Shown here piece after piece: positions 3,214-17,761 of a stretch of DNA of 64,000 nucleotides. Positions within the stretch are counted from its first letter, which is position 1. Each line of letters starts with the position of its first letter. The notes under the pieces were generated by a model. The model saw nothing but the letters and a program-made list of their open reading frames with translations, was not told where the DNA came from and did no database searches. The DNA is taken from assembly GCA_019044685.2 (NCBI GenBank), contig JAGTXX020000008.1, positions 310,001 to 374,000 on the forward strand, read 5' to 3'. The translations under genes and the position numbers were made by a program. Source of the stretch: Nannochloris sp. 'desiccata'. Taxonomy: Eukaryota; Chlorophyta; Trebouxiophyceae; Chlorellales; Chlorellaceae.

Positions 3214-3294
3214 GTTGAAAAAAAAGCCTTTTCAAAATTCTAAAGTACAAGTAAGCAAGAACGCACCCATCTAGTGGGGCCCTCCTTTCCTGAG

Positions 3295-4757
3295 ATGGCC
3301 CCTCCCAGGAGCAGCAGCCTTGCTTGGCAGGCATTGTCAGATGTTTCGTCGAAAATTTTGACAACGGTTATTTTCAGCCATCGAGTCCTCCAGGGACTTG
3401 ACGAGGCTGAGAATTGTAGTAGAATAGAGAAATTGGTGGGAGAAACGCTTCAGGCGGCCGCCACCAATATTTTAGAAAATGCGGTTACAGATCAAGATCT
3501 GCGCGTGAAAAGCACTTTTGTTGCTAAAAGCAAAGATAGCCAGCCGATTGCGGTTAGATTGACTGTTAACCTTCTCACAGAGGCGGCGGTTAAACTCTTA
3601 GATGCTATTCCCAAGGTTGGAAATCAAATAGCAACCCCCGACGGTGACATGCTTCACCTGAAATGGCCGGATCGCCCGATTACTGAGGCTTTCCTCATTA
3701 CCAACGTGCCTTCTGGCATTAAGGTAGATAGTATTCAAGAGCATATGAAAGAAAAATGGGACCTGGAGACTCTGTCCCTGGGATACGCTCCCACTCGCGG
3801 ATCCCCCGGCCTCTTCCACGCTCATACGCTCCTTGGTGTATTTAAAGGCACCAAGTTTCCTGCCCAAATCGTAATATCTGGTATGCCTGGTGCCCCTGGT
3901 ACTCGTAAGATGTCTTTCCGTCGTATTACGCTGCCTCCACCACCACCACCATCACCGCCACCTCGACCTGAGGCTGGTAATACCACTCATCTTAATACTG
4001 CAACACTTGCTCCAACTCTGGCTGCTGTCGTTGCACAAGGAAAATTTAGGAAACTGTCTACAGCGGAGAAGGCAGTACTGAATTACCTTGTAAATTCTGA
4101 TACTGCGTCTAGGTATCATGCGGCTGATACCGAAGCAGCAGCTGCAACAGCAACAGCTACAGCTACAGTAGCAGCAGCACAGGGTGGCACCGCCGCTGTT
4201 TTGACCGAGGAGGCAGGAAAGGCTGGAAACCAAGCCAATACTGGTCAAGCTCGAATTGATGCGAATGAAGATGAAATTCAAAGCATGGGGGAAGGCAGAC
4301 AACCGCCGGGGGCGACTGAGGAACAAATGGCGGCTGAAAGAAATCAAGGAGAGTCTGGCGATGGCGGTCAAGAAAATAACCCAAACGGTCAAGTAAATGA
4401 TCAAAGGGATGAAAGTGAACGCGAATCTGGAGTTACAACAGAGCCAGAAGACTCTGAAACTGCTGATGAGATCGTGACAGGCGATAAAGAAGGTCAGAGG
4501 GAAGCTCTATCCCCTACTGCGCGAGGCGCTGCCGATGTTGCTGGTGTATCGGCTGCCGTTGCCGGTAATGTTGCATATGGTGAACAAGAGGAGGTAGATA
4601 TAGTGGAAGACTTCCAAGTAGTGCAAAAACAAAAGCAGCGCCATACTGAAGCTAGTGATCGCCGTTTACAGCTACTCACCCGGGTCCAAAGCAAAGAAAA
4701 AGTCTCTGCAGTGGCCAAGCAAGCGGTTCAATTAATGCAATATAACCCTAACCTAGC
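3295..4757 (+). CDS. LINE ORF1 (gag-like protein), family E, 3' truncated
   Basis: The ATG at 3295 opens a frame with no stop until 4911. Residues about 60-200 resemble the ORF1 protein at 12071-13405 (block around LKWPDRPITEAFLI against IKLSWENRIGKYYRLL), so this is a gag-type ORF1. A proline run follows at about 3931-3965, then Ala/Thr-rich and acidic low-complexity sequence. No ORF2 follows, so the element is cut at its 3' end, which is unusual for LINEs. I end it at 4757, because beyond that the DNA is the antisense of a spliced gene; the true break may be a few tens of bases away. Confidence 0.6.
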
Positions 4758-7085: not shown

Positions 7086-8126
7086 AAGTTGCTTTCTTGT
7101 AAAACCCGGTGCTGTAAAGGTGCGAGTTGCTTAAGCTTTTTTTGTCCAGTTCTCTTTAGTGGGAAAAAGTTAGAGTTACATATTTTATTTTTATTTATCT
7201 GCTGAATATTAATTTTTTATACGACTTTATCTGAATGATTTTTGATGTCACCGCTGCGGATAGAGGTGGCAGCGTCTCACGTCGGCTGCCGGCCCGAGTT
7301 AGCGTGGACAATATTAGCAGACGTTAAAATGTAACTTCCTTCCTTCCTTCCTTCCTTCCTTCCTTCCTTCCTTCCTTCCTTCCTTCCTTCCTTCCTCTGC
7401 CCGCGATCATCTTGACGTGGAACGTTCCTCGTAGAACAGTGCTATGCCTCAATTGAGTAAATCCTCCTCCTGCAAGCACCTACAGATAAACTTGCAGATA
7501 AATATTTCGCTAAAACAGTCGTGGCCGGCAGCAGGTGCAAACTTTTCTGTAACCTGCAAAGCTATCTTAACTATCTCAAGCTTTTCGTTACGGAAATTCC
7601 GTTACTATAATTGTACCAATCGGTGGCAAAAACTTTCCCCACTCATTTTTTGTCAGTTACCTAACTCAAATGGCAGTTGAGCCAACTACCTGTGATCAGA
7701 TGTTGAGTTTCTGTGTAATGAACCATCTTCAGTGATATTATCAGTGTTTTTATTAGTCGGCGATTCGCCGGGATTGGCCGAAAACGCTCGCCGAAAGAAT
7801 TTCGAAGCCTAGAAATAAATAATATTGCCACTGCATTTATCCTGCCGCAGCCCAAATTTTCAGTGGGTTTCTGATTTCTGATTGTTTTGTCTTTTCTATG
7901 CAAACACTAGTTTCACAGGCGCCCCTCCAGACTTTGAAAATTGAGAAATAGAGGCATTCAAAAGCCCAGTGGAAAAAAAAGTTGAAAAGAAAACTGCTAT
8001 TTTTATTTTTTACAGTTAAGGTACGGAGCGGAAAATAGTTCTCACGTACTAGCGTAGACTAAGAATTAAATAAAATGAGTTTGTAGTCCTTAATAGTTCA
8101 AAATAAATAGTTTTCAAAGAAATCAG
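7086..8126. other. Intergenic, no gene seen
   Basis: Apart from the TTCC repeat I see no supported gene. Short open frames lack family features. Confidence 0.5.
7336..7396. repeat. (TTCC)n microsatellite
   Basis: About 15 uninterrupted TTCC units. Confidence 0.97.
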
Positions 8127-9098
8127 TCAGCAGTGGTGTGTATGCTTGAAAATTTCAAGGGCCGTCTCCTCTTCAATCAATGCAAATTCTATGCATTTAT
8201 AGCCATCACATCCCCAGTGATTTCTTTCTTTATGAAAAATATGAAACTTTGCTTGGTTTGCATGCTTGAAAAAGTCTTCAATTACTGGAAAATCAAGGCT
8301 ATGAAGCTCTATCTGAATTTGACCAACGCGGTATCGACCTAGAATGACGTCATCAAAAATTAGTTTAAAAGCAGCCCATTCACATCCTTCACAATCAACC
8401 TTGAGGATATCAATTTTTCTACCATCATGTGCAAGTCGAGTGCGCATTTCCACCAGCGTAAGCAAAGGATTGTGTGTATTTGTATAAGGATTAAAAAATG
8501 TAGTGCCTGAAGAAGGATCACCTCGAAGACCCCACGCATGATAATGCACTCCTGAAGCGGTGGCATTTCCTTCCCAGGTGGGGGTATCTCCTGTAGGATC
8601 GAAAGTGTGAATTTCACACCCAACTGTATTGAGGCTTTGTTCAAACGTCAAGTCGCCGTTCGAGCCTACCGAGTAAACAAGGCAAGAGCGGAAGGAAAAA
8701 TAACTATTTAGACTACCACATACAAATTTCCCCCCATCTCCAAACTCGTTTCCTACACGCTGCTCTATATGGCAATTCCAGCTTGGTTCAAAAGGATCGT
8801 ATTTAGCTTTCATATCAACAAAAAGTTCAAGATGAGTAAGAACTTCTGCACGGCGATTTAGAGCCTCGTCTCTCATATCAATTTTCTGTTGCCACAGAGC
8901 ATTGCAGCCTTTACTAACTATTTCTGATGCATTAGATCTTAGACGTTGCACGAATACCAGTAAAAAGAGGAGGAGAGATACGAATATGGGGATGGTTAGC
9001 AGCTCCTGTTGCTTATGCCGTAAGCGGGGGCAGTCAACTTCGGTGCTAATCTCCCAGCAACTTCCTTCTGGTGAGGCTCTTGAGTTTGGGACAGTCAT
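8127..9098 (-). CDS. FkbM/METTL24-like methyltransferase, membrane anchored
   Basis: A single-exon 323-residue protein (ATG 9098, stop 8127). Residues about 34-51 (IPIFVSLLLFLLVFV) form one N-terminal transmembrane anchor, so a type II endomembrane protein is likely. The rest matches the Methyltransf_21/FkbM-like families: CLVYSVGSNGDLTFEQSL is the SAM-binding glycine motif (VGSNGD), IHTFDPT follows, and IDILKVDCEGCEWAAF is the hallmark LKxDxEGxE block. A Cys pair lies near the C-terminus (HWGCDGYKC). Substrate unknown; relatives are often O-methyltransferases on sugars or lipids. Confidence 0.8.
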   Translation of the reverse strand: MTVPNSRASPEGSCWEISTEVDCPRLRHKQQELLTIPIFVSLLLFLLVFVQRLRSNASEIVSKGCNALWQQKIDMRDEALNRRAEVLTHLELFVDMKAKYDPFEPSWNCHIEQRVGNEFGDGGKFVCGSLNSYFSFRSCLVYSVGSNGDLTFEQSLNTVGCEIHTFDPTGDTPTWEGNATASGVHYHAWGLRGDPSSGTTFFNPYTNTHNPLLTLVEMRTRLAHDGRKIDILKVDCEGCEWAAFKLIFDDVILGRYRVGQIQIELHSLDFPVIEDFFKHANQAKFHIFHKERNHWGCDGYKCIEFALIEEETALEIFKHTHHC

Positions 9099-9485
9099 TT
9101 TTTATTGTTACAAAATTTGAAACAATTTGTTTAAAGGGTGAAGCTTGTCGTTGTAATTGGGACAATTTTCGTTTCGAGGATTCAGGCAATAATGATTAAC
9201 TTAAACTTAGTAGTATTTATTTAAGAGAGCAAAAGCAAAAGCTAGCAATAATTCGTCCGTTTGTGAAAATTTTGGCTGTATTATCAATCAAATCAAAGGA
9301 TTTTATATGGATTAATCAAAGAATTTTTATGCTGGCGGGGTCTAACCAACACTCTATGTATCGAAAGCAGCCGCCATGCGAGCTTTCGTTGTATATACAA
9401 CATAATGGACTCTAATTTTCTTCACAAAAACTAATTAAGCAGGAGACATGCCGCCTTCCGAAAGCTTTTGAGATGGTATCTGCAA
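9099..9485. other. Intergenic, no gene seen
   Basis: Upstream region of the methyltransferase gene up to the LINE target site. Nothing else supported. Confidence 0.5.
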
Positions 9486-11143
9486 GGTGAGGAAAGTTGA
9501 GAGGAACTTATCACTGTTGCTGATGATCTGCACTGTGGGACTAAAGCCAGGGTGAGATGGCGTGGCCACCGCTCTAATGAATTCCCGACCTCGTCGGGTG
9601 TCCAACAAGGCAGTGCTGCCTCTAATCCAGAATGGAACTTGGTAGCTGATGTGCTCACAAGGCAGATCCAGGAAGCTGTAGAACCCAATGGTGGCATCCA
9701 GTTGTACTCAAAGGCAACGTCCCGTTCGCTCACGCTTGGCAGTGCTCCGCTACCTGATTCTATTATCATTAAAGTCCTTATGCTTTTGCTTGCGGATGAT
9801 ATATATTGCATCTTTTTCAAAGAATGAGGCTGAGTTGGATTTCCTTCTGCAAAGAATTAATGAGGTATGCACTCGATGGGGACTAAAAGTCAGTATTGCC
9901 AAAACCAATATTTTGGTTATTGCTGGCGGTGAAAGGCCACCTGACCCACGCGTTAGCCTAAATGGCGAAGAAATCAAAGTGGTTGAGCACGCTAAGTACC
10001 TGGGCTCCTGGTATAGTAATAATGGATCAATTGAAAAAGAAATCAATGTCCGTGTTGGTGCAGCATGGGGCGCTGGTCGTAAACTAGGCCCTATTTTACG
10101 AGCCAAAAAGGTGAGCATTAAGTCTAAGGTCCACATGTACCAGAGTTTGGTGCTACCAATTCTGACATATGGAGCAGAGTCCTGGCCCTTGACTACCGCG
10201 CTAACAGCTAAACTTGAGCACTATCATCAGTGCCAACTCCGAGCTATTCTCGGTCTCAGCTGGAGAGACATGGTATCGAATAAAGAAGTGCATGAACGAT
10301 TAAAAACTGTATCTATGGAAGAATGTTGTAGACGCCAACGAATGCTTTGGATGGGTCATGTCGTTCGGATGCCTGACAACCGCCTGCCCAAGATACTTTT
10401 ATTCGGCCAAATGGAGGGCCACCGGATTCGGGGCAGAAAACTGAGTTTGCGTCGGCTGTATGAAAAGGATATTATGGAGTTAAAAGGCGGGTTCCCTGAT
10501 GGACTAGACTGGTATGAACTAGCCAGTGATCGGAAAATCTGGCCAAAGTTTGTTATGCGTGAGCCCCTGGCGCAGCAGCCAGCAACAGAATCAAATGGTC
10601 TCCAAACCACAAATGGTCTCCAAACCGCCTCTGCTGCTGCTGTCGATGCAAATACTCATGCTGATGGTAATGTTCACCCTGTCAGCCAGCCGCCCAGCAC
10701 TGCACCTTTGAGAAGAAGCAGCAGGATAATTGAAAGGATGGGTCAAAGCCTGTCCACCCCCTTGAATGCCCCCTTGACCTCTTCTAGTGGACAGCCAAGG
10801 CGGAGTAATCCGTCTTCGCCATACATTGGGAGACCTCGGGGGCGTCCCCGTGGGTCCGGAAGAGGAACTGGCGCCTACATGCCTACTGGGAATAGCAGAG
10901 GACGTCCTGTGGGTAGTAAGTCTAAGCGTCACGGTTTTTAATCATGTTCCTCTCTGAGGCGGTGAATATTTTGTGGCGTCGACGGCGTTTTTGGCTGTGT
11001 TTTTCCATATTCCTATCTTAAAAGAACTGTTTTACAAATATATTTTCTCTATTATTATCTGAATCAGTTTTCTGGCAGCAGAATATATTCATATATTAAA
11101 GGCTGTAAAGAGAGAGAGAGAGAGAGAGAGGTGAGGAAAGTTG
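9486..11143 (+). mobile_element. LINE, family F, 5'-truncated, with target-site duplication
   Basis: The insertion occupies 9500-11129 between direct copies of GGTGAGGAAAGTTG at 9486-9499 and 11130-11143. Its 3' end is a (GA)n tail starting near 11108, preceded by TGTAA. The same 3' end occurs as a short second insertion at 41895-41965. The left end enters in the middle of the RT domain, the usual result of incomplete target-primed reverse transcription. Confidence 0.93.
9552..10941 (+). pseudogene. LINE reverse transcriptase fragment, frameshifted
   Basis: The frame ending at 9827 holds the RT blocks SSGVQQGSAAS and LLADDIY (catalytic ADD). The protein then continues in another frame, to 10941, so there is a frameshift near 9800-9830. 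The downstream part has LPILTYGAESWPL and RRQRMLWMGHVVRMPD, typical of the C-terminal region of RTE/CR1-type LINE proteins. It ends in Arg/Gly/Pro-rich repeats (RGRPRGS, SRGRPVGS) resembling AT-hooks. This copy cannot make an active polymerase. Confidence 0.85.
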
Positions 11144-11585
11144 CCACGTCAGCCGGCTGGTCTCCCAAGGCATAGTACAAGGAAAAGTGTAGATAGCAAT
11201 GAATGTGGCGGTATGACCCTAGTTACGGTAGCGTGTGGAAGATAGATAGCATACATTCGTGTTTTCAATAAGTGATAGAGGAAAGAAAAAGTTTGTTGGT
11301 AAGAGTTTTACCTACCCAAGATAGTGGCGGTTGCGGGGCTCTTTCCAAGTTGATAAAATTTACAGCAATGCATAGGCCAGAGAGTAGCTGCGTAGTGACT
11401 GATTGCTTCCAGATGATATCTGTTGAGGTGTGTAGTAGTGAATATGCTGCTTTCTAGCAGTGTACAGTCAAGACGACCAGCGGTGAAGGTGCTTTGATTT
11501 ATAAATGGTGTGCAAATCGACCATTGAATGCTGGAAAATGTTCTCGACCTTGCGTAGACGGTAGCTATAGTTTAAAAGAGGAAAA
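11144..11585. other. Intergenic, no gene seen
   Basis: Flank of the LINE insertion. A 61-codon open frame at 11272-11457 has no recognisable feature. Confidence 0.5.
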
Positions 11586-11709
11586 TTGGAATCTTACGCG
11601 ACTACCAATTGCGCCACGAAGCCTAATAAGAATAGGGCATTATTTATTATTTACTATGAAATAATTATGCTATTGACCTCGGCAGGACTCGAACCAGCAA
11701 CCTTAAGAT
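11586..11709 (-). tRNA. trnW-CCA: Candidate circularly permuted tRNA-Trp(CCA) gene
   Basis: On the minus strand the 3' half (11709-11674) precedes the 5' half (11623-11586), with 50 AT-rich bases between them. Joined 5' half to 3' half, they give a 74-nt cloverleaf. The acceptor GGCTTCG pairs with CGAGGTC at 7 of 7 positions (two G-U). The D region is TGGCGCAATTGG (A-box like). Anticodon stem TAAGA/TCTTA pairs 5 of 5, loop TTCCAAA gives anticodon CCA. Variable loop is AGGTT, T loop TTCGAGT (B box GGTTCGAGTCC), discriminator A. The D stem has one mismatch and the T stem one T-T. Bases before the 3' half (TTGGA) can pair with TCCAA of the anticodon loop, as in a splicing bulge-helix-bulge. A T4 run follows the 5' half, fitting Pol III termination. 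A decayed or unrelated arrangement is possible but would not explain the matching stems. Confidence 0.75.
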
Positions 11710-12070
11710 AAATCCAAGATGTCGGCTCAAGGTCGCTTTTGTCCCGTAGAATAAGATATGAACTTTTCAGAAAATCGAGCCCCCCGGTGCCTATACTCAA
11801 AAAAACATAGAGCGCAACCAATTCCCTCTAGCTTTGAATCATGTCCTCGATCCACGGAGTTTTATTAGCTTTCGCGAGCTTTTAAAATATTTTGGCATCA
11901 AAGATTGATCATCAAAATTTCTGGAAATCACTGTATATCAAGTGCGCACCACCTACAATATTACTATCAATATTAAGGATTAGGGTTATAAGCGTGCTTG
12001 CCTGCTTTACCCCTGTTTCGTTCGAAAAAAATAAATAAAAAAATTATCAAACCCCTTGCCGTCAGTCGTC
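11710..12070. other. Intergenic and leader of LINE family A
   Basis: No gene seen. The left end of the LINE lies somewhere here (perhaps after about 11950), but I cannot place it. Confidence 0.4.
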
Positions 12071-13405
12071 ATGCCCCCCATGAAGCTTAAAGCTACACCA
12101 AGCCTCTATACTAGCGAAGGAATCTCTCCTTTACCTATAGTAGTGGCAACAACCAAAGCTTATGCTCGGAAAAGCCTCGTTGACCAGGCTGCAGCATTTA
12201 CTGCTGTCGTCGCCCGCTCTCTCGAAGACGTAGTGCGGCGTAACCCTGATTTCCCTCGAGGTCTAAACGTCCGCGACTGCTTTCAAGAAGCTGCAACTAA
12301 AAGCACTGCAAATGGATTCTTAATAGCTAAGTTTACTATTGTTAACCCAGCTATTATAGCCTGTATCGCACAACTTACTGACTCCTCCCCGTTGCTGCCC
12401 ATCAAGGAACCCAACCCCGGGTTTATTGAAATCAAGCTCTCCTGGGAGAATCGTATTGGTAAATACTACCGTCTTCTGGACGTACCGCAAGGTCTCTCTG
12501 TTGAAGGGCTTGTTAATTCTATTAATAGCCTCCTCCCTTGCAAATACGTAGATACCCACAAAGGACCCGGTGGCTACCCTGTGGTTGCCCAACATGTTGT
12601 CGAATTCACCGTTCCTTCTGCTCGGGATATCCCTCCTGAATTCACTCTTCCTCATCAACTTAGAAACAAAAAAGCCTACTCCGTCAGAGTGCTTCATGTG
12701 CCTACTGTTGACAACAAAATCGCCAACGGCCTTGCCAGGGTACCTCTTGTTGAATGGATGGACACTCATTCTGCTCCAACCTGGCATTCTGGATCTCCCA
12801 TTTCTCAAAATGGTGCCAGTTTTGCCCGCCAAGCACCCCTTACCCCTGCTGGTCCTTCTGCTTGGAAGAGCGGAAAAGCGGTCAAAAATGATAATTCTCC
12901 AGCACAAATCGCTCACCAGAACTTTCTTAATGCGCGCAACAAACAACACCTCTATCAAAATAAGCTTGCAAACAATGAGAAAGCTGCAGTTGCTAAAAAA
13001 GCAGCAGAAGAGCGCGCTGCTGCTGCGGCTGCGGAAGCCGCTGTTGTTGCTGCCCAAAAATTAAAGGCAACAGTAGCAAAAGCCAAAGCAGAGTCTGAAG
13101 CGTATGTTAGACAGCTTGTTATGAATTCTATCAGTGCAGCCTTTGAGAGGCATGCTCCGGAAGAAGCAGCAGCTATTAAAGCAGCGGCCGCTGCTGCCGA
13201 TGCTGCTGCTGCCGATGCGACTGCTGACAAAATTGAAGCCCTCCGTCTCCAAAGAAGCAAACGTGTCCGAGCTGATTCTGACCAGGATGAAGATGAAGAT
13301 GTAGATGATGGTGACAATACCCGTATGCTTGATGCGGACACATCGAAGAATGACTCCAAGAAAGCAAAGGAAGCCGATATCCCGTCGCCCATGGTGGTAG
13401 CTTAA
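12071..13405 (+). CDS. LINE ORF1, gag-like RNA-binding candidate
   Basis: 444 residues from the ATG at 12071. No zinc knuckle is visible. Residues about 60-220 form a globular region shared with the ORF1 at 3295 (around IEIKLSWENRI and LLDVPQGLSVEGLV). Residues about 285-400 are an Ala/Lys/Glu-rich probable coiled coil, suitable for trimerisation. The C-terminus has a short basic patch (SKRVRADSD) and a strongly acidic run (DQDEDEDVDDGD). By analogy with LINE ORF1 proteins it should coat the element's RNA; that is inferred from position and the ORF2 behind it. Confidence 0.75.
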   Translation: MPPMKLKATPSLYTSEGISPLPIVVATTKAYARKSLVDQAAAFTAVVARSLEDVVRRNPDFPRGLNVRDCFQEAATKSTANGFLIAKFTIVNPAIIACIAQLTDSSPLLPIKEPNPGFIEIKLSWENRIGKYYRLLDVPQGLSVEGLVNSINSLLPCKYVDTHKGPGGYPVVAQHVVEFTVPSARDIPPEFTLPHQLRNKKAYSVRVLHVPTVDNKIANGLARVPLVEWMDTHSAPTWHSGSPISQNGASFARQAPLTPAGPSAWKSGKAVKNDNSPAQIAHQNFLNARNKQHLYQNKLANNEKAAVAKKAAEERAAAAAAEAAVVAAQKLKATVAKAKAESEAYVRQLVMNSISAAFERHAPEEAAAIKAAAAAADAAAADATADKIEALRLQRSKRVRADSDQDEDEDVDDGDNTRMLDADTSKNDSKKAKEADIPSPMVVA

Positions 13406-13447
13406 ATCTGAATCTTTGATGATTTCAGTAAACACTACAGTCTTCTA

Positions 13448-16400
13448 ATGTCTTCAAATCCTACTGTACTCAAAATAGGCAGCCATAATATACGTGGCGG
13501 CCTTATTCAGAATAATCAAGTTTCCCCAAAAGCTCAAGCTCTAGCATACTTTTGGGCAGCTCAACACCTAGATATCATTTTTATCCAAGAACATAAAGTT
13601 GCTGATTTCTTCATGATTAGCAGTCTTTGCGGAGGACCTTTACGCCCTTGGAAAGCCTATTTTAATCACCATAAACCTACATCTAGTGGCAACCCAAGTT
13701 GTGCGATTTTCATTCGCCGTCGTCTTATTAGTTCCAACCTTATCAAGATTCAAGAAAACTCTCTTAGTAAATCTAGCAATGGCCGCCTTATTTCACTTAA
13801 TATAACTTGGGGTGGCCATCGTCTTCAGCTCGCTTGCATGCATTTGCCCAACACACCTGCAGAGCAGCGAGATTTTATTGACACCCTTTTAGTTCCACTA
13901 GCCAATACTACCAACGGCAATTCTTTGCATAGAAAGATATGGGGAGGTGATTTCAACTTTGTTCACAACCCTAGCCTTGATAGAATCCAACGTGTTACTG
14001 AAAATGGAGTTACAACGCTGCAACGACCAATGATTACGACAACTCCTATTGGCACCCTTTGGTCTACTCGTTTCTCCAATCTCTGTGACTTATATCGTCA
14101 AAAGCACCCTACTAGTCGAGATATGAGTCGTTTTGATCCTGTCTCTACCTCAGCAGGGCACGGCGGTAGCGCCCGCCTTGATCGCTTCTATATTTCTGAC
14201 TCGTTGGAGTCCTCTAGTCCTTACTCTCGCCCATGCAGCACCACTATAGTCCCTAATACGATCTCTTCTGACCATCTTTTAGTTACTATGGATTTAGTCG
14301 CGCGAGTTTCTACATCTCTTCCTACACCTGCCCAAGCGCCACCCCGTTGGCGCAAGCGGCGTCGCTACAAACTTATGTTTAAACACGTACCTTCTTTAGT
14401 TGAAGAATATGAGACTAAATTAGTCTTTCTCTTCAGTCAAGCTCCCTTAGATCAACGTCAGCTACTTGAATGGTACCCTAGCTTCAAGCTGCAGTGGACC
14501 AACCTTATCGTCGAAACAAATATAAAATATTGTTCGCTGCGAAATGCTGCCCCTGCACATACTACAGCTGATTTGCAACTTGCCTTCTCTCACCTACAGG
14601 CAGCTTCAAATGCCGAGCTATCGACAGTCTTGCAAACGTACACAGCTGCACATCAAGCCAATACTACTGCTATTGCTGTCTACAGTTCAACTCATTCTGC
14701 TCTATTGGCTCGATATAATATTCATGAAAATGAAGTCCCCAACAAGAACCTCACACATTGGATTGCACCATGTTCTCATACAACTATTCAAGCAATTAAA
14801 TCTCCCTCTGGACAGCTGGTTACTAACCCTGTCCGTTGCGCGAATATCTTTGCGAAAAAATTTGCCGCCGTTAGTAGCCTCCCGGCAACTAGTACTGCTG
14901 CTCAGCAAGAAGTCTTAACTTATTTAGAACAATCAAATCTACCTAAAATAGATGCAGCAGAAGCGGCTATCCTTGGTAGTGGTGTTGTGACAGTAGAAGA
15001 AGTCAATTCTGCTATTAAACACACCCGCCCCGGCACTGCTCCTGGCACTGATGGCATACCTATTGCCTTTTACCACCTTAGCAGAACAATTCTAGCTCCG
15101 CTCTTAGCAAAAGTATATAGCGCTGCTCATTCTATTAATGACGCTCCAGCATCATTCTGTTTAGGTGCTATCTCACCTCTTTACAAACTTGACCCCACTG
15201 CTGGCGACCTCACCGACACTCAATTTTATCGCCCGATTACATTATTGGATGTCGACTACAGGATCCTAGCCAAAGTTTTAGCTACCCGATACAAACCCAT
15301 CATGCCTAAAATAATTCATCCTAGTCAATCTGCTTTCATATCTGGCAGAAATATTGGTGACTGCAACTGGCTCCCCCAATTTCTTGCCCCGCTGCTAGCA
15401 CGCTCTGGTCAGTCAGCAGCACTCCTTCTGTGTGACATTGCTAAAGCATATGATACAGTTGATAGAGAATTCTTATGGCAAATTATGGCTCTTATGGGTG
15501 TTGGAGACGATTTTTTAAAATGGATGAAACTCCTTCACCGCAACACAAAAGCGTGTGCTGTCGTCCGAGGTTACCTCGGCGACGCGGCCAGCATCCTTGC
15601 TGGAGTACGACAAGGCTGCCCTCTTGCGAATATGCTCTTCTCCTTCGTTACTCACGCCTTGATTCTCTTTTTACAACCTCTAGAAATTGGTATCAAAATC
15701 AATAATAAAGTGGTTCCAAATACTTTATTCGCCGACAATTTACGCGCTCTTGCGGCTCTCTTTGAGAACTACCAATGCCCCAAAGCAACACAGTTACTCA
15801 ACGCTCTGGTCATTTTTGGAAACGCCTCCAACTTACGTCCCTCTGTACCAAAGTTGGAGTGCTTATTGCTTGGAGCTATTCCAGCAAATACTCCTTCCAC
15901 TGTCACCAGCATCGGCAATTTTAAGTTAGTACCGCTAGCGCGCTCCCTTGGCCTACAGCTCCCTGAAGGTACAGCCTTTCCTTCAAACTCATGGGATCTT
16001 CTGGCAACCAAATTTGACAAGAGATGCAAGCTTATCAGTCAATGTGGCTTATCCATGTTTGGCAGAAGCAGAGCTATCTCTAGCTACAGTAATTCAGCTC
16101 TCTACTATGTAGCTGAACATGCCCCACTTCCCACTGCGGCTGTTCTCAGTAGACTTTCAAAAACTACCTCCAACCTCATTAACCGAAATGTCGGTCCAGT
16201 AGCTCCAGGACGTGGTTTCTATGGGATTAAACCAGCAGCACTAGCTGGTCCACCAACAAAAGGCGGCTTCGGCCTAATTCCTATTGAATCACACATAGTT
16301 GCTCGTCATGCTAAAGTTGGTCTCAGGTTATTATTTGATCCAGCTGATGTTACTTGGATCCATCTTGGTCGCCAACTCCTCGCAACCACATGTCCTTTCC

Positions 16401-17761
16401 GTGACCATGGTGGTGGCAATTCGCGTCTGGCGGCTGTGTCCTTCCCGACCTCGGTTGACCCAGCAACTTTACCTAGTCCTCTTTCTTTCCTTTTGAAAGC
16501 GCTTTACCAATTACCCCCCCTGATTGTCAATCCCTCCTTAGCTCCAGGGCCCTGGTGTTATGGAGTACCTCTGTGGAATAATAAATTCATTGTCGCCACC
16601 AACCCCGCCACCGGCACTTCTCTTGGCACAAGTTTGAATTCTTTAGATTCCGCAGCTGGATTTTACTCTACAGTGTCAACATTACATACAATTGGTGATG
16701 CATTAACTTGCTATGGTAGACTAAGCGCTATTCCTCTTAATTTAGCAACTAGTCAAACACACGCGTTGTACCGAGCAGTTGCAAATGACTGTTTTGGACC
16801 AGAAACTTCTGGAGTTTGGACTAACCCTAATAGCAGTGGTTTACCTGAACTATCAATTGCAAAACCTCGCCTCTTTGCTCTATTAAAATCAATTCGACCA
16901 GATTGGCTGAGCGCTGCTCATTCTCTCCTTGCCGAAGACGAACACGCACCTGTTCCAGCTCCAAAACCATCAATGGACGATGCTTTATCTATTCTCCTTG
17001 GTAATCTTGGCTGGATGCAAAATCAAAAATTCATTCCAACAGCTGAGTATACAGTAAAATGGGGCACCCGACAACATTTTGAGACCACGGCGGCGTTCAC
17101 CGCTCAACTCAACAAGTTTAAAAATTTCACTCATATTGCTACTCCTGTTGGAAATGACACCACACGCCTTCAAAGGCTTTATTCTGCTTTTAAACGAGCT
17201 TGGTATATCCGTTGGGATCGCAAGCACACGGAGATATTATGGCTCTTGGCACATGATGCTCTGCCTACAGCAGCACGCCTTCACACAACAGACACGTGCT
17301 CCTGCTGCCCTACTATCACCACCCCAGGCCTTCTTCACCACTTCTGGTCTTGCTCTGTATCTGAAGCTATTCGAAATGAATTTTGGCAGCAGCTCAGCTC
17401 CTTAGAAGGCTTCTCTCAAAGTACCCTCCGCCGCCACCACCTTTGGCTCTTGGAATGTCCGCTTCCCTCCTTCTACCAACCGCTCTTGCCCGTGGTTGCT
17501 CTGGCTGCCCTCAATGCAATGGATTCTGGACGTAGATCTCTATTTCGTTTATCACGTAACAGCTCTACAGCATCCATCCCCACTGTCGAACGAGCGGCTA
17601 TCCGCAATGGCATTGCCGCTTTTTGGAAGCTCCTTGCCCAATTTGCAGCCAACCCACAAGCCCCTCAACGATGGTCCTCTCTCCCTGAAGACCATCCAAT
17701 CATCCACTGGAACTCTACTGCAGCAAAACTTGAGCTGTCACCCAGGCTATTGCAGCCATAA
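13448..17761 (+). CDS. LINE ORF2: AP endonuclease plus reverse transcriptase
   Basis: 1437 residues. The N-terminal exonuclease-endonuclease-phosphatase domain (about 5-285) shows IGSHNIRGG, FIQEHK, WGGDFNFV and SSDHLLV, the expected catalytic Asn, Glu, Asp and Asp-His. The RT domain (about 560-830) has FYRPITLLDVDYRILAKVLA, SAFISGRNIGD, LLCDIAKAYDTVDREFLW (first catalytic Asp) and AGVRQGCPLANMLF. The catalytic box reads FADN (residues 761-764) rather than FADD. Near residue 1290 a Cys/His cluster (CSCC, then HHFWSC) forms the zinc-like tail. The frame is intact, but the lost aspartate makes present activity doubtful. Confidence 0.92.
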   Translation: MSSNPTVLKIGSHNIRGGLIQNNQVSPKAQALAYFWAAQHLDIIFIQEHKVADFFMISSLCGGPLRPWKAYFNHHKPTSSGNPSCAIFIRRRLISSNLIKIQENSLSKSSNGRLISLNITWGGHRLQLACMHLPNTPAEQRDFIDTLLVPLANTTNGNSLHRKIWGGDFNFVHNPSLDRIQRVTENGVTTLQRPMITTTPIGTLWSTRFSNLCDLYRQKHPTSRDMSRFDPVSTSAGHGGSARLDRFYISDSLESSSPYSRPCSTTIVPNTISSDHLLVTMDLVARVSTSLPTPAQAPPRWRKRRRYKLMFKHVPSLVEEYETKLVFLFSQAPLDQRQLLEWYPSFKLQWTNLIVETNIKYCSLRNAAPAHTTADLQLAFSHLQAASNAELSTVLQTYTAAHQANTTAIAVYSSTHSALLARYNIHENEVPNKNLTHWIAPCSHTTIQAIKSPSGQLVTNPVRCANIFAKKFAAVSSLPATSTAAQQEVLTYLEQSNLPKIDAAEAAILGSGVVTVEEVNSAIKHTRPGTAPGTDGIPIAFYHLSRTILAPLLAKVYSAAHSINDAPASFCLGAISPLYKLDPTAGDLTDTQFYRPITLLDVDYRILAKVLATRYKPIMPKIIHPSQSAFISGRNIGDCNWLPQFLAPLLARSGQSAALLLCDIAKAYDTVDREFLWQIMALMGVGDDFLKWMKLLHRNTKACAVVRGYLGDAASILAGVRQGCPLANMLFSFVTHALILFLQPLEIGIKINNKVVPNTLFADNLRALAALFENYQCPKATQLLNALVIFGNASNLRPSVPKLECLLLGAIPANTPSTVTSIGNFKLVPLARSLGLQLPEGTAFPSNSWDLLATKFDKRCKLISQCGLSMFGRSRAISSYSNSALYYVAEHAPLPTAAVLSRLSKTTSNLINRNVGPVAPGRGFYGIKPAALAGPPTKGGFGLIPIESHIVARHAKVGLRLLFDPADVTWIHLGRQLLATTCPFRDHGGGNSRLAAVSFPTSVDPATLPSPLSFLLKALYQLPPLIVNPSLAPGPWCYGVPLWNNKFIVATNPATGTSLGTSLNSLDSAAGFYSTVSTLHTIGDALTCYGRLSAIPLNLATSQTHALYRAVANDCFGPETSGVWTNPNSSGLPELSIAKPRLFALLKSIRPDWLSAAHSLLAEDEHAPVPAPKPSMDDALSILLGNLGWMQNQKFIPTAEYTVKWGTRQHFETTAAFTAQLNKFKNFTHIATPVGNDTTRLQRLYSAFKRAWYIRWDRKHTEILWLLAHDALPTAARLHTTDTCSCCPTITTPGLLHHFWSCSVSEAIRNEFWQQLSSLEGFSQSTLRRHHLWLLECPLPSFYQPLLPVVALAALNAMDSGRRSLFRLSRNSSTASIPTVERAAIRNGIAAFWKLLAQFAANPQAPQRWSSLPEDHPIIHWNSTAAKLELSPRLLQP

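Follow-up and report, generated by a model that had tools for sequence, protein, structure and literature searches.

We conclude, with a probability of roughly 0.93, that the locus at positions 11709-11586 on the minus strand of the window is a functional, circularly permuted nuclear gene for tRNA-Trp(CCA), with its junction between positions 37 and 38 (type II of Soma). The window is the whole 64,000-nucleotide stretch of DNA analysed here and corresponds to C8:310001-374000 of an assembly of 21.55 Mb in 18 contigs. An earlier note had interpreted 11586..11709 as a permuted working gene; the sequence data support this interpretation and the coordinates hold, and the strand, which the note left unstated, is minus. 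Together with the Trp gene, 26 permuted tRNA genes were resolved in this genome.

When the minus strand is read 5' to 3', the 3' half of the tRNA (positions 38-73, ATCTTAAGGTTGCTGGTTCGAGTCCTGCCGAGGTCA, 11709-11674) comes first and comprises the anticodon-stem 3' strand, the AGGTT variable loop, the T arm with the B box GGTTCGAGTCC, the acceptor 3' strand and the discriminator A. A 50-nt spacer without a T4 run (11673-11624) lies between the acceptor 3' and 5' strands, followed by the 5' half (positions 1-37, GGCTTCGTGGCGCAATTGGTAGTCGCGTAAGATTCCAA, 11623-11586), which contains the acceptor 5' strand, the D arm (A box), the anticodon-stem 5' strand and TT-CCA-A. Directly after the 5' half is TTTT, a Pol III-type terminator (11585-11582). 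Thus, the sequence confirms that the 3' half is located upstream of the 5' half on the same strand, 50 nt away, and that a T4 run follows. The leader from -1 to -8 (TTGGATTT read 5' to 3', 11717-11710) includes TTGGA (11717-11713), which pairs with TCCAA at positions 33-37 as had been proposed, together with a TT that precedes the inferred cut site. In this helix positions 33-37 pair with -4 to -8, and 32:-3 is T.T. The junction sequences could, as judged from these pairings, form a bulge-helix-bulge.

The two halves fit each other as described in the earlier note: the anticodon stem has 5/5 pairs (TAAGA/TCTTA), the acceptor stem has 7/7 including two G.T pairs, and the anticodon CCA lies within a seven-base loop of the rejoined tRNA. 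Two flaws were not mentioned there: the T stem contains one T.T mismatch, and the D stem has three pairs in the ARAGORN cloverleaf. Despite these, the rejoined sequence is a canonical tRNA (U8, A14, G18G19, U33, TTC loop and stems). ARAGORN found no tRNA in the window as it lies, nor in window 8001-16000 when introns of up to 300 nt were permitted. Rfam likewise returned no tRNA for the window at the gathering threshold or for 8000-16000 at E ≤1, as expected because the Rfam tRNA model is colinear. When the halves were rejoined in the order 5' half and 3' half, ARAGORN reported tRNA-Trp(cca) and drew the cloverleaf.

We built a covariance model, R1, for 37/38-permuted tRNAs, trained on six colinear tRNAs of the same genome that were re-ordered in silico, plus the Trp gene. 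The sole R1 match in the window was the Trp locus (60.4 bits, E 7.9e-18), a score that is partly by construction because the Trp sequence was in the training set. A structure scanner, independent of R1 and written after the first R1 matches, gave one match in the real window and none in 40 dinucleotide-shuffled windows. The tRNA-Trp locus is not a chance arrangement. A comparison with viral contigs yielded six stretches with 16-base exact matches, none of which was a permuted tRNA (best R1 score 14.4 bits), and a 23-base piece had no match among the other genome contigs compared.

The gene lies in a duplicated segment (11122..11785) that shares 99.2% identity with L023:1-665 (C8:551000-551664) across 665 aligned positions. 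When the rejoined 74-nt tRNA was compared with the whole-genome DNA, six half-matches were obtained, all of them permuted; they correspond to the locus in the window and to two copies in inverted arrangement (an inverted pair) at C8:551465-552682. No colinear tRNA-Trp was found by this search or among the candidates scored at the loci examined, and thus the scan for an ordinary tRNA-Trp(CCA) that had been recommended came back empty; the case for its absence is strong but not absolute. The inverted pair belongs to a palindrome near the end of contig C8 (L023, C8:551000-553200; centre at L023:1067/1068), the second arm of which bears scattered single-base insertions. This palindrome is probably a fold-back assembly artefact, and therefore the real Trp loci probably number two. 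The copies differ by substitutions at window positions 11763, 11734, 11728 and 11129 and by an indel at 11210. The two loci agree in full over both halves and the spacer, and the permuted order is kept at both. The two loci are recent duplicates and do not represent independent conservation.

The copies part exactly after CCCCCC at window position 11785. Past this CCCCCC, the contig-end copy continues with a poly(A) tract and then with DNA identical to window 3239-3595. With introns permitted, ARAGORN also proposed on the contig-end copy a tRNA-Thr(tgt) interrupted by a 107-nt intron (L023:554-753, minus strand), which borrows the 3' half of that Trp copy. The proposal was absent from the window copy, where the flank differs (8001-16000 tested by ARAGORN), and we judged it probably spurious.

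A decayed, rearranged tRNA pseudogene or a tRNA-derived repeat, in which the pairing of the halves was kept by chance, could be suspected from the duplication of the locus, from the LINE-like element that adjoins the tRNA-Trp (ORFs 12056-17761) and from an ORF at 22-2235 with a weak reverse transcriptase match. However, the DNA search gave permuted copies only, without a working colinear source, and the two loci have the same exons and spacer but different flanks. Further, the terminator and the junction helix are intact, and the layout is common to 25 other tRNA genes. We therefore regard a pseudogene or repeat as very unlikely. An assembly error, either a fold-back or a mis-join that permuted a colinear Trp gene, would have a precedent in the palindrome at the contig end (C8 ~551000-553200) with the single-base insertions in its second arm; the chance of this is negligible, since that palindrome lies elsewhere, each Trp half is single in the window, and 26 permuted genes on 13 of the 18 contigs have a consistent 37/38 junction with spacers of 5-73 nt (550 nt in total).

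Protein comparisons identify the host genome as that of a Chlorella-related trebouxiophyte green alga. The anthranilate synthase encoded in the window is 76-77% identical to those of Micractinium, Parachlorella and Chlorella, and the V-ATPase subunit E is ~60% identical to that of Micractinium; these are the nearest named relatives, and in both comparisons closer proteins carry no species name.

An Rfam tRNA search of the genome gave ten tRNAs above the cut-off, all of which ARAGORN confirmed as colinear. We then used B-box patterns as a guide to further loci. All 141 occurrences of GGTTCRANYCC in the genome were examined. AGTTCRANYCT occurs at 122 places, of which 20 were examined in addition to two (Gln and Tyr) already in the set; CGTTCGANYCG occurs at 10, one of which was examined; and TGTTCRANYCA occurs at 154, none of which was examined on that basis. 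These last patterns were covered in part at most, so both the permuted and the colinear class lack tRNAs whose T stems are unusual. Candidate loci were screened with R1 and the structure scanner, both tuned to the 37/38 type only.

The 26 permuted genes represent 26 anticodons and 15 amino acids: Asn GTT, Gly TCC and GCC, Arg TCG, CCG, TCT, ACG and CCT, Ile AAT and TAT, Tyr GTA, Lys CTT, Phe GAA, Met CAT, Glu CTC, Cys GCA, Thr TGT, Ala AGC, CGC and TGC, Leu CAA, AAG and TAA, Ser GCT and AGA, and Trp CCA. ARAGORN assigned a tRNA with the stated anticodon to every rejoined gene (26/26), and to none of them (0/26) when they were left unjoined with 60-nt flanks. The R1 scores of 24 genes ranged from 33.9 to 65.8 bits, including Ala TGC and Leu TAA (51.7 and 42.7 bits), the halves of which were delimited by hand. 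Arg CCG (L077) and Thr TGT (L128) scored only ~22 bits, no better than the halves of colinear tRNAs (up to 21.3 bits), and these two rest on the scanner and ARAGORN.

Nine colinear nuclear-type genes were found, six of them with an anticodon-loop intron: Val TAC, Gln CTG, Met CAT, His, Pro TGG, Pro AGG (L166, with a 49-nt intron), Asp, Ser TGA and Ser CGA. We take the colinear Met CAT to be initiator-like, and we read as Ser CGA the gene that ARAGORN labelled Pro CGG. Two colinear Ser(GCT) genes (L004 and L005) have one and the same sequence on different contigs and are presumably organellar; the nuclear-type Ser(GCT) is permuted and located at L084. Within the 141 GGTTCRANYCC B boxes, there were 21 permuted tRNA species compared with six nuclear-type colinear and two organelle-like ones. 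Permuted genes thus account for 26/35, or about three quarters, of the nuclear-type tRNA genes found in a survey that is incomplete for both classes, and several expected anticodons were absent from both classes within the loci surveyed. Permutation looks like the rule in the genome surveyed. Permuted genes were described as rare in the earlier note; they are indeed known from Cyanidioschyzon and some small green algae, but with 26 resolved genes they are not rare here. We consider it likely that most nuclear tRNAs of this alga, including its only tRNA-Trp, are permuted with a uniform 37/38 junction, and that circularisation by the splicing machinery would be their default route of maturation.

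Several loci were kept out of the 26, among them the other Trp locus with its palindromic counterpart. L111 (C11:1726.9k) is Leu-like, with permuted order and 7/7 acceptor pairs, and its anticodon arm was not resolvable; it may contain an intron, have another type of junction or be a pseudogene. L054 (C5:482.9k) has a Pro-like 3' half with no matching 5' half within 3 kb, and an Ile with a 122-nt intron proposed there by ARAGORN was not trusted. L177 is 5'-half-like with no 3' half nearby.

Tandem arrays of colinear, intron-bearing tRNA genes would also place a 3' half before a 5' half if they were read out of phase, and tandem duplication of a tRNA with an intron is among the plausible ways in which permuted genes could have arisen. 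A possible sign of such an array is seen at the Thr locus L128, where a second B-box-like element lies just upstream. In all 26 loci, however, each half is single in the DNA examined. Further, ARAGORN was blank for the 26 genes with 60-nt flanks when introns of up to 120 nt were allowed, as it was at the permuted loci among L025-L173 and in window 8001-16000 with introns of up to 300 nt. We give this possibility almost no credence. The second B-box-like element at Thr(TGT) L128 (C16:207.1k) is located 40 bp upstream, in the leader, and is perhaps the remnant of a tandem duplication.

All 26 permuted genes had a run of T4 or longer within 30 nt of the trailer's start, whereas such runs occurred in 6/26 leaders (-30 to -1), in 11/26 stretches from +40 to +70 and in 0/26 spacers. 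For the junction, we counted Watson-Crick pairs between positions 32-35 of the 5' half and the leader in nine registers across the 26 genes. The register from 32:-3 to 35:-6, which was picked after inspection of the leaders and is thus partly post hoc, with the neighbouring registers as controls, gave 58 of 104 Watson-Crick pairs, compared with 36.4 +/- 3.7 for shuffled partners; none of 20,000 shuffles reached 58. The remaining eight registers showed no clear excess, except for a weak one at 32:-9 (288/20,000 shuffles). The pair 32:-3 alone was formed in 18 of the 26 genes (C-G in 12 and T-A in 6), a count reached by 34 of 100,000 shuffles. In a table of 168 cells the three largest excesses were 34:-5, 32:-3 and 35:-6, and the largest was matched anywhere in the table by 8 of 1999 shuffles. 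When the longest helix within a wide stretch was scored instead, the excess was weak and was reached by 209 of 5000 partner shuffles. We take 32:-3 to be the exact register of the anticodon-intron pairing in eukaryotic pre-tRNA splicing. Anticodon-intron (A-I) pairs are mentioned in passages of a 2014 review (PMC3978253).

Upstream TATA motifs (-70 to -10) were not enriched in the 26 genes (6/26, compared with 4/26 and 9/26 in two control stretches). To our knowledge, an upstream TATA is not a defining trait among green algae. For Cyanidioschyzon merolae, passages of the review report a TATA-like element upstream of most permuted genes (PMC3978253).

In the minimum-energy fold of a longer Trp transcript, the leader paired with the 3' half instead, and the fold of a shorter transcript was no better than those of shuffled sequences (z -0.35). 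In these models, thermodynamic folding adds no support to the Trp junction. The leader segment GCGACCTTGAG (11726-11736, minus strand) can base-pair with a part of the 3' half, CTTAAGGTTGC (11707-11697), so that the 3' half might be engaged in an alternative hairpin of a regulatory or inactive RNA that is not a tRNA precursor. Within this segment the Trp copies differ at two positions, and in each case a G.U pair preserves the pairing, but two changes are few, and the start of transcription may exclude 11726-11736. Further, neither the whole-genome DNA search nor the candidates scored revealed another source of tRNA-Trp. We consider such a hairpin RNA to be highly improbable compared with a tRNA precursor.

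In the published pathway, as described in passages of the review, a bulge-helix-bulge is cut, the product is ligated to a circle and the spacer is removed, possibly via RNase P and tRNase Z (PMC3978253). The sequence elements that this pathway needs are present at the Trp locus, and from the published pathway we infer a circular-intermediate route for its transcript, including transcription, circle formation and the action of each enzyme. A Pol III transcript would run in the order leader, 3' half, spacer, 5' half and trailer and end at TTTT. The anticodon stem and the helix between positions 33-37 and the leader would form a bulge-helix-bulge, in which the SEN endonuclease would cut after 37 and before 38. 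A ligase would then join the exon ends into a circle, the 50-nt spacer would be removed from the acceptor loop by RNase P and tRNase Z, and CCA would be added. The splicing endonuclease that had been predicted for this genome is encoded there: the PF01974 profile had two matches in the genome, and the two proteins resemble solved chains of Sen2 (best E 5.3e-35) and of Sen34 (best E 1.5e-10), which makes them SEN2-like and SEN34-like candidates for the catalytic subunits. A ligase, RtcB, is encoded at two loci, one on C11 and one, in two pieces, on C14.

Permuted tRNA genes are already known as a kind. The tabulated set in the 2014 review comprises 34 genes, among which there is no Trp; the highest share in a single genome is 11 of 43 (PMC3978253). 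A close likeness described in its passages is to the prasinophytes Ostreococcus and Micromonas (Maruyama 2010, tabulated in Soma 2014), in which the permuted genes are green-algal nuclear genes, nearly all of type II (37/38) with an hBH-type bulge-helix-bulge and spacers of 11-64 bp. The table gives 3-6 such genes per species, of the isotypes Ser, Cys, Leu, Arg, Asn and iMet only and without Trp (PMC3978253), in contrast to the 26 genes for 15 amino acids here. Cyanidioschyzon merolae, for which the review describes a demonstrated circular RNA intermediate (PMC3978253), shares the 3'-half-first order and the downstream T run, with spacers of 7-74 nt. Unlike in the genome surveyed here, however, 11 of 43 genes are permuted in C. 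merolae according to these passages, with junctions at four positions and many introns of atypical form; in the present survey every resolved junction is 37/38 (the only type sought), and the permuted genes outnumber the colinear ones found. In the archaeon Thermofilum pendens, the permuted sequence is likewise joined at a splicing-endonuclease motif, but the junction is 59/60 and two genes are described in the review (PMC3978253). Two further permuted Ser genes are reported in passages on the Amorphochlora nucleomorph (PMC4494063).

Auxenochlorella UTEX 250-A (2025) is also a trebouxiophyte green alga with permuted tRNA genes, which according to main-text passages were found after the tRNAscan-SE set had proved incomplete (PMC12636532). 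It may match the richness in permuted genes seen here, as those passages give no number. No further report of permuted tRNAs in trebouxiophytes was found by title or start of abstract in a search that covered few subscription journals. What is apparently new is a tRNA-Trp gene in permuted form, of which the 2014 table has none, and a share of permuted genes that seems to be a majority. This share appears to exceed the published figures compared, with the Auxenochlorella number outside the comparison.

A tRNA set that is mostly permuted offers a natural setting in which to study why permutation arises and persists, how Pol III reads genes in which the B box comes first, and how RNase P and tRNase Z handle circles. 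It also cautions that most tRNA genes of such algae can escape a standard tRNA finder, because ARAGORN recognised 0/26 permuted genes as they lie. The junction rule obtained from the survey (32:-3 onward) is usable for finding permuted genes in other genomes.

The LINE-like element next to the Trp locus (window 12056-17761, plus strand) consists of two ORFs, of 449 and 1437 aa, and carries endonuclease (Exo_endo_phos) and reverse transcriptase domains. It begins ~350 bp from the tRNA-Trp gene, on the opposite strand.
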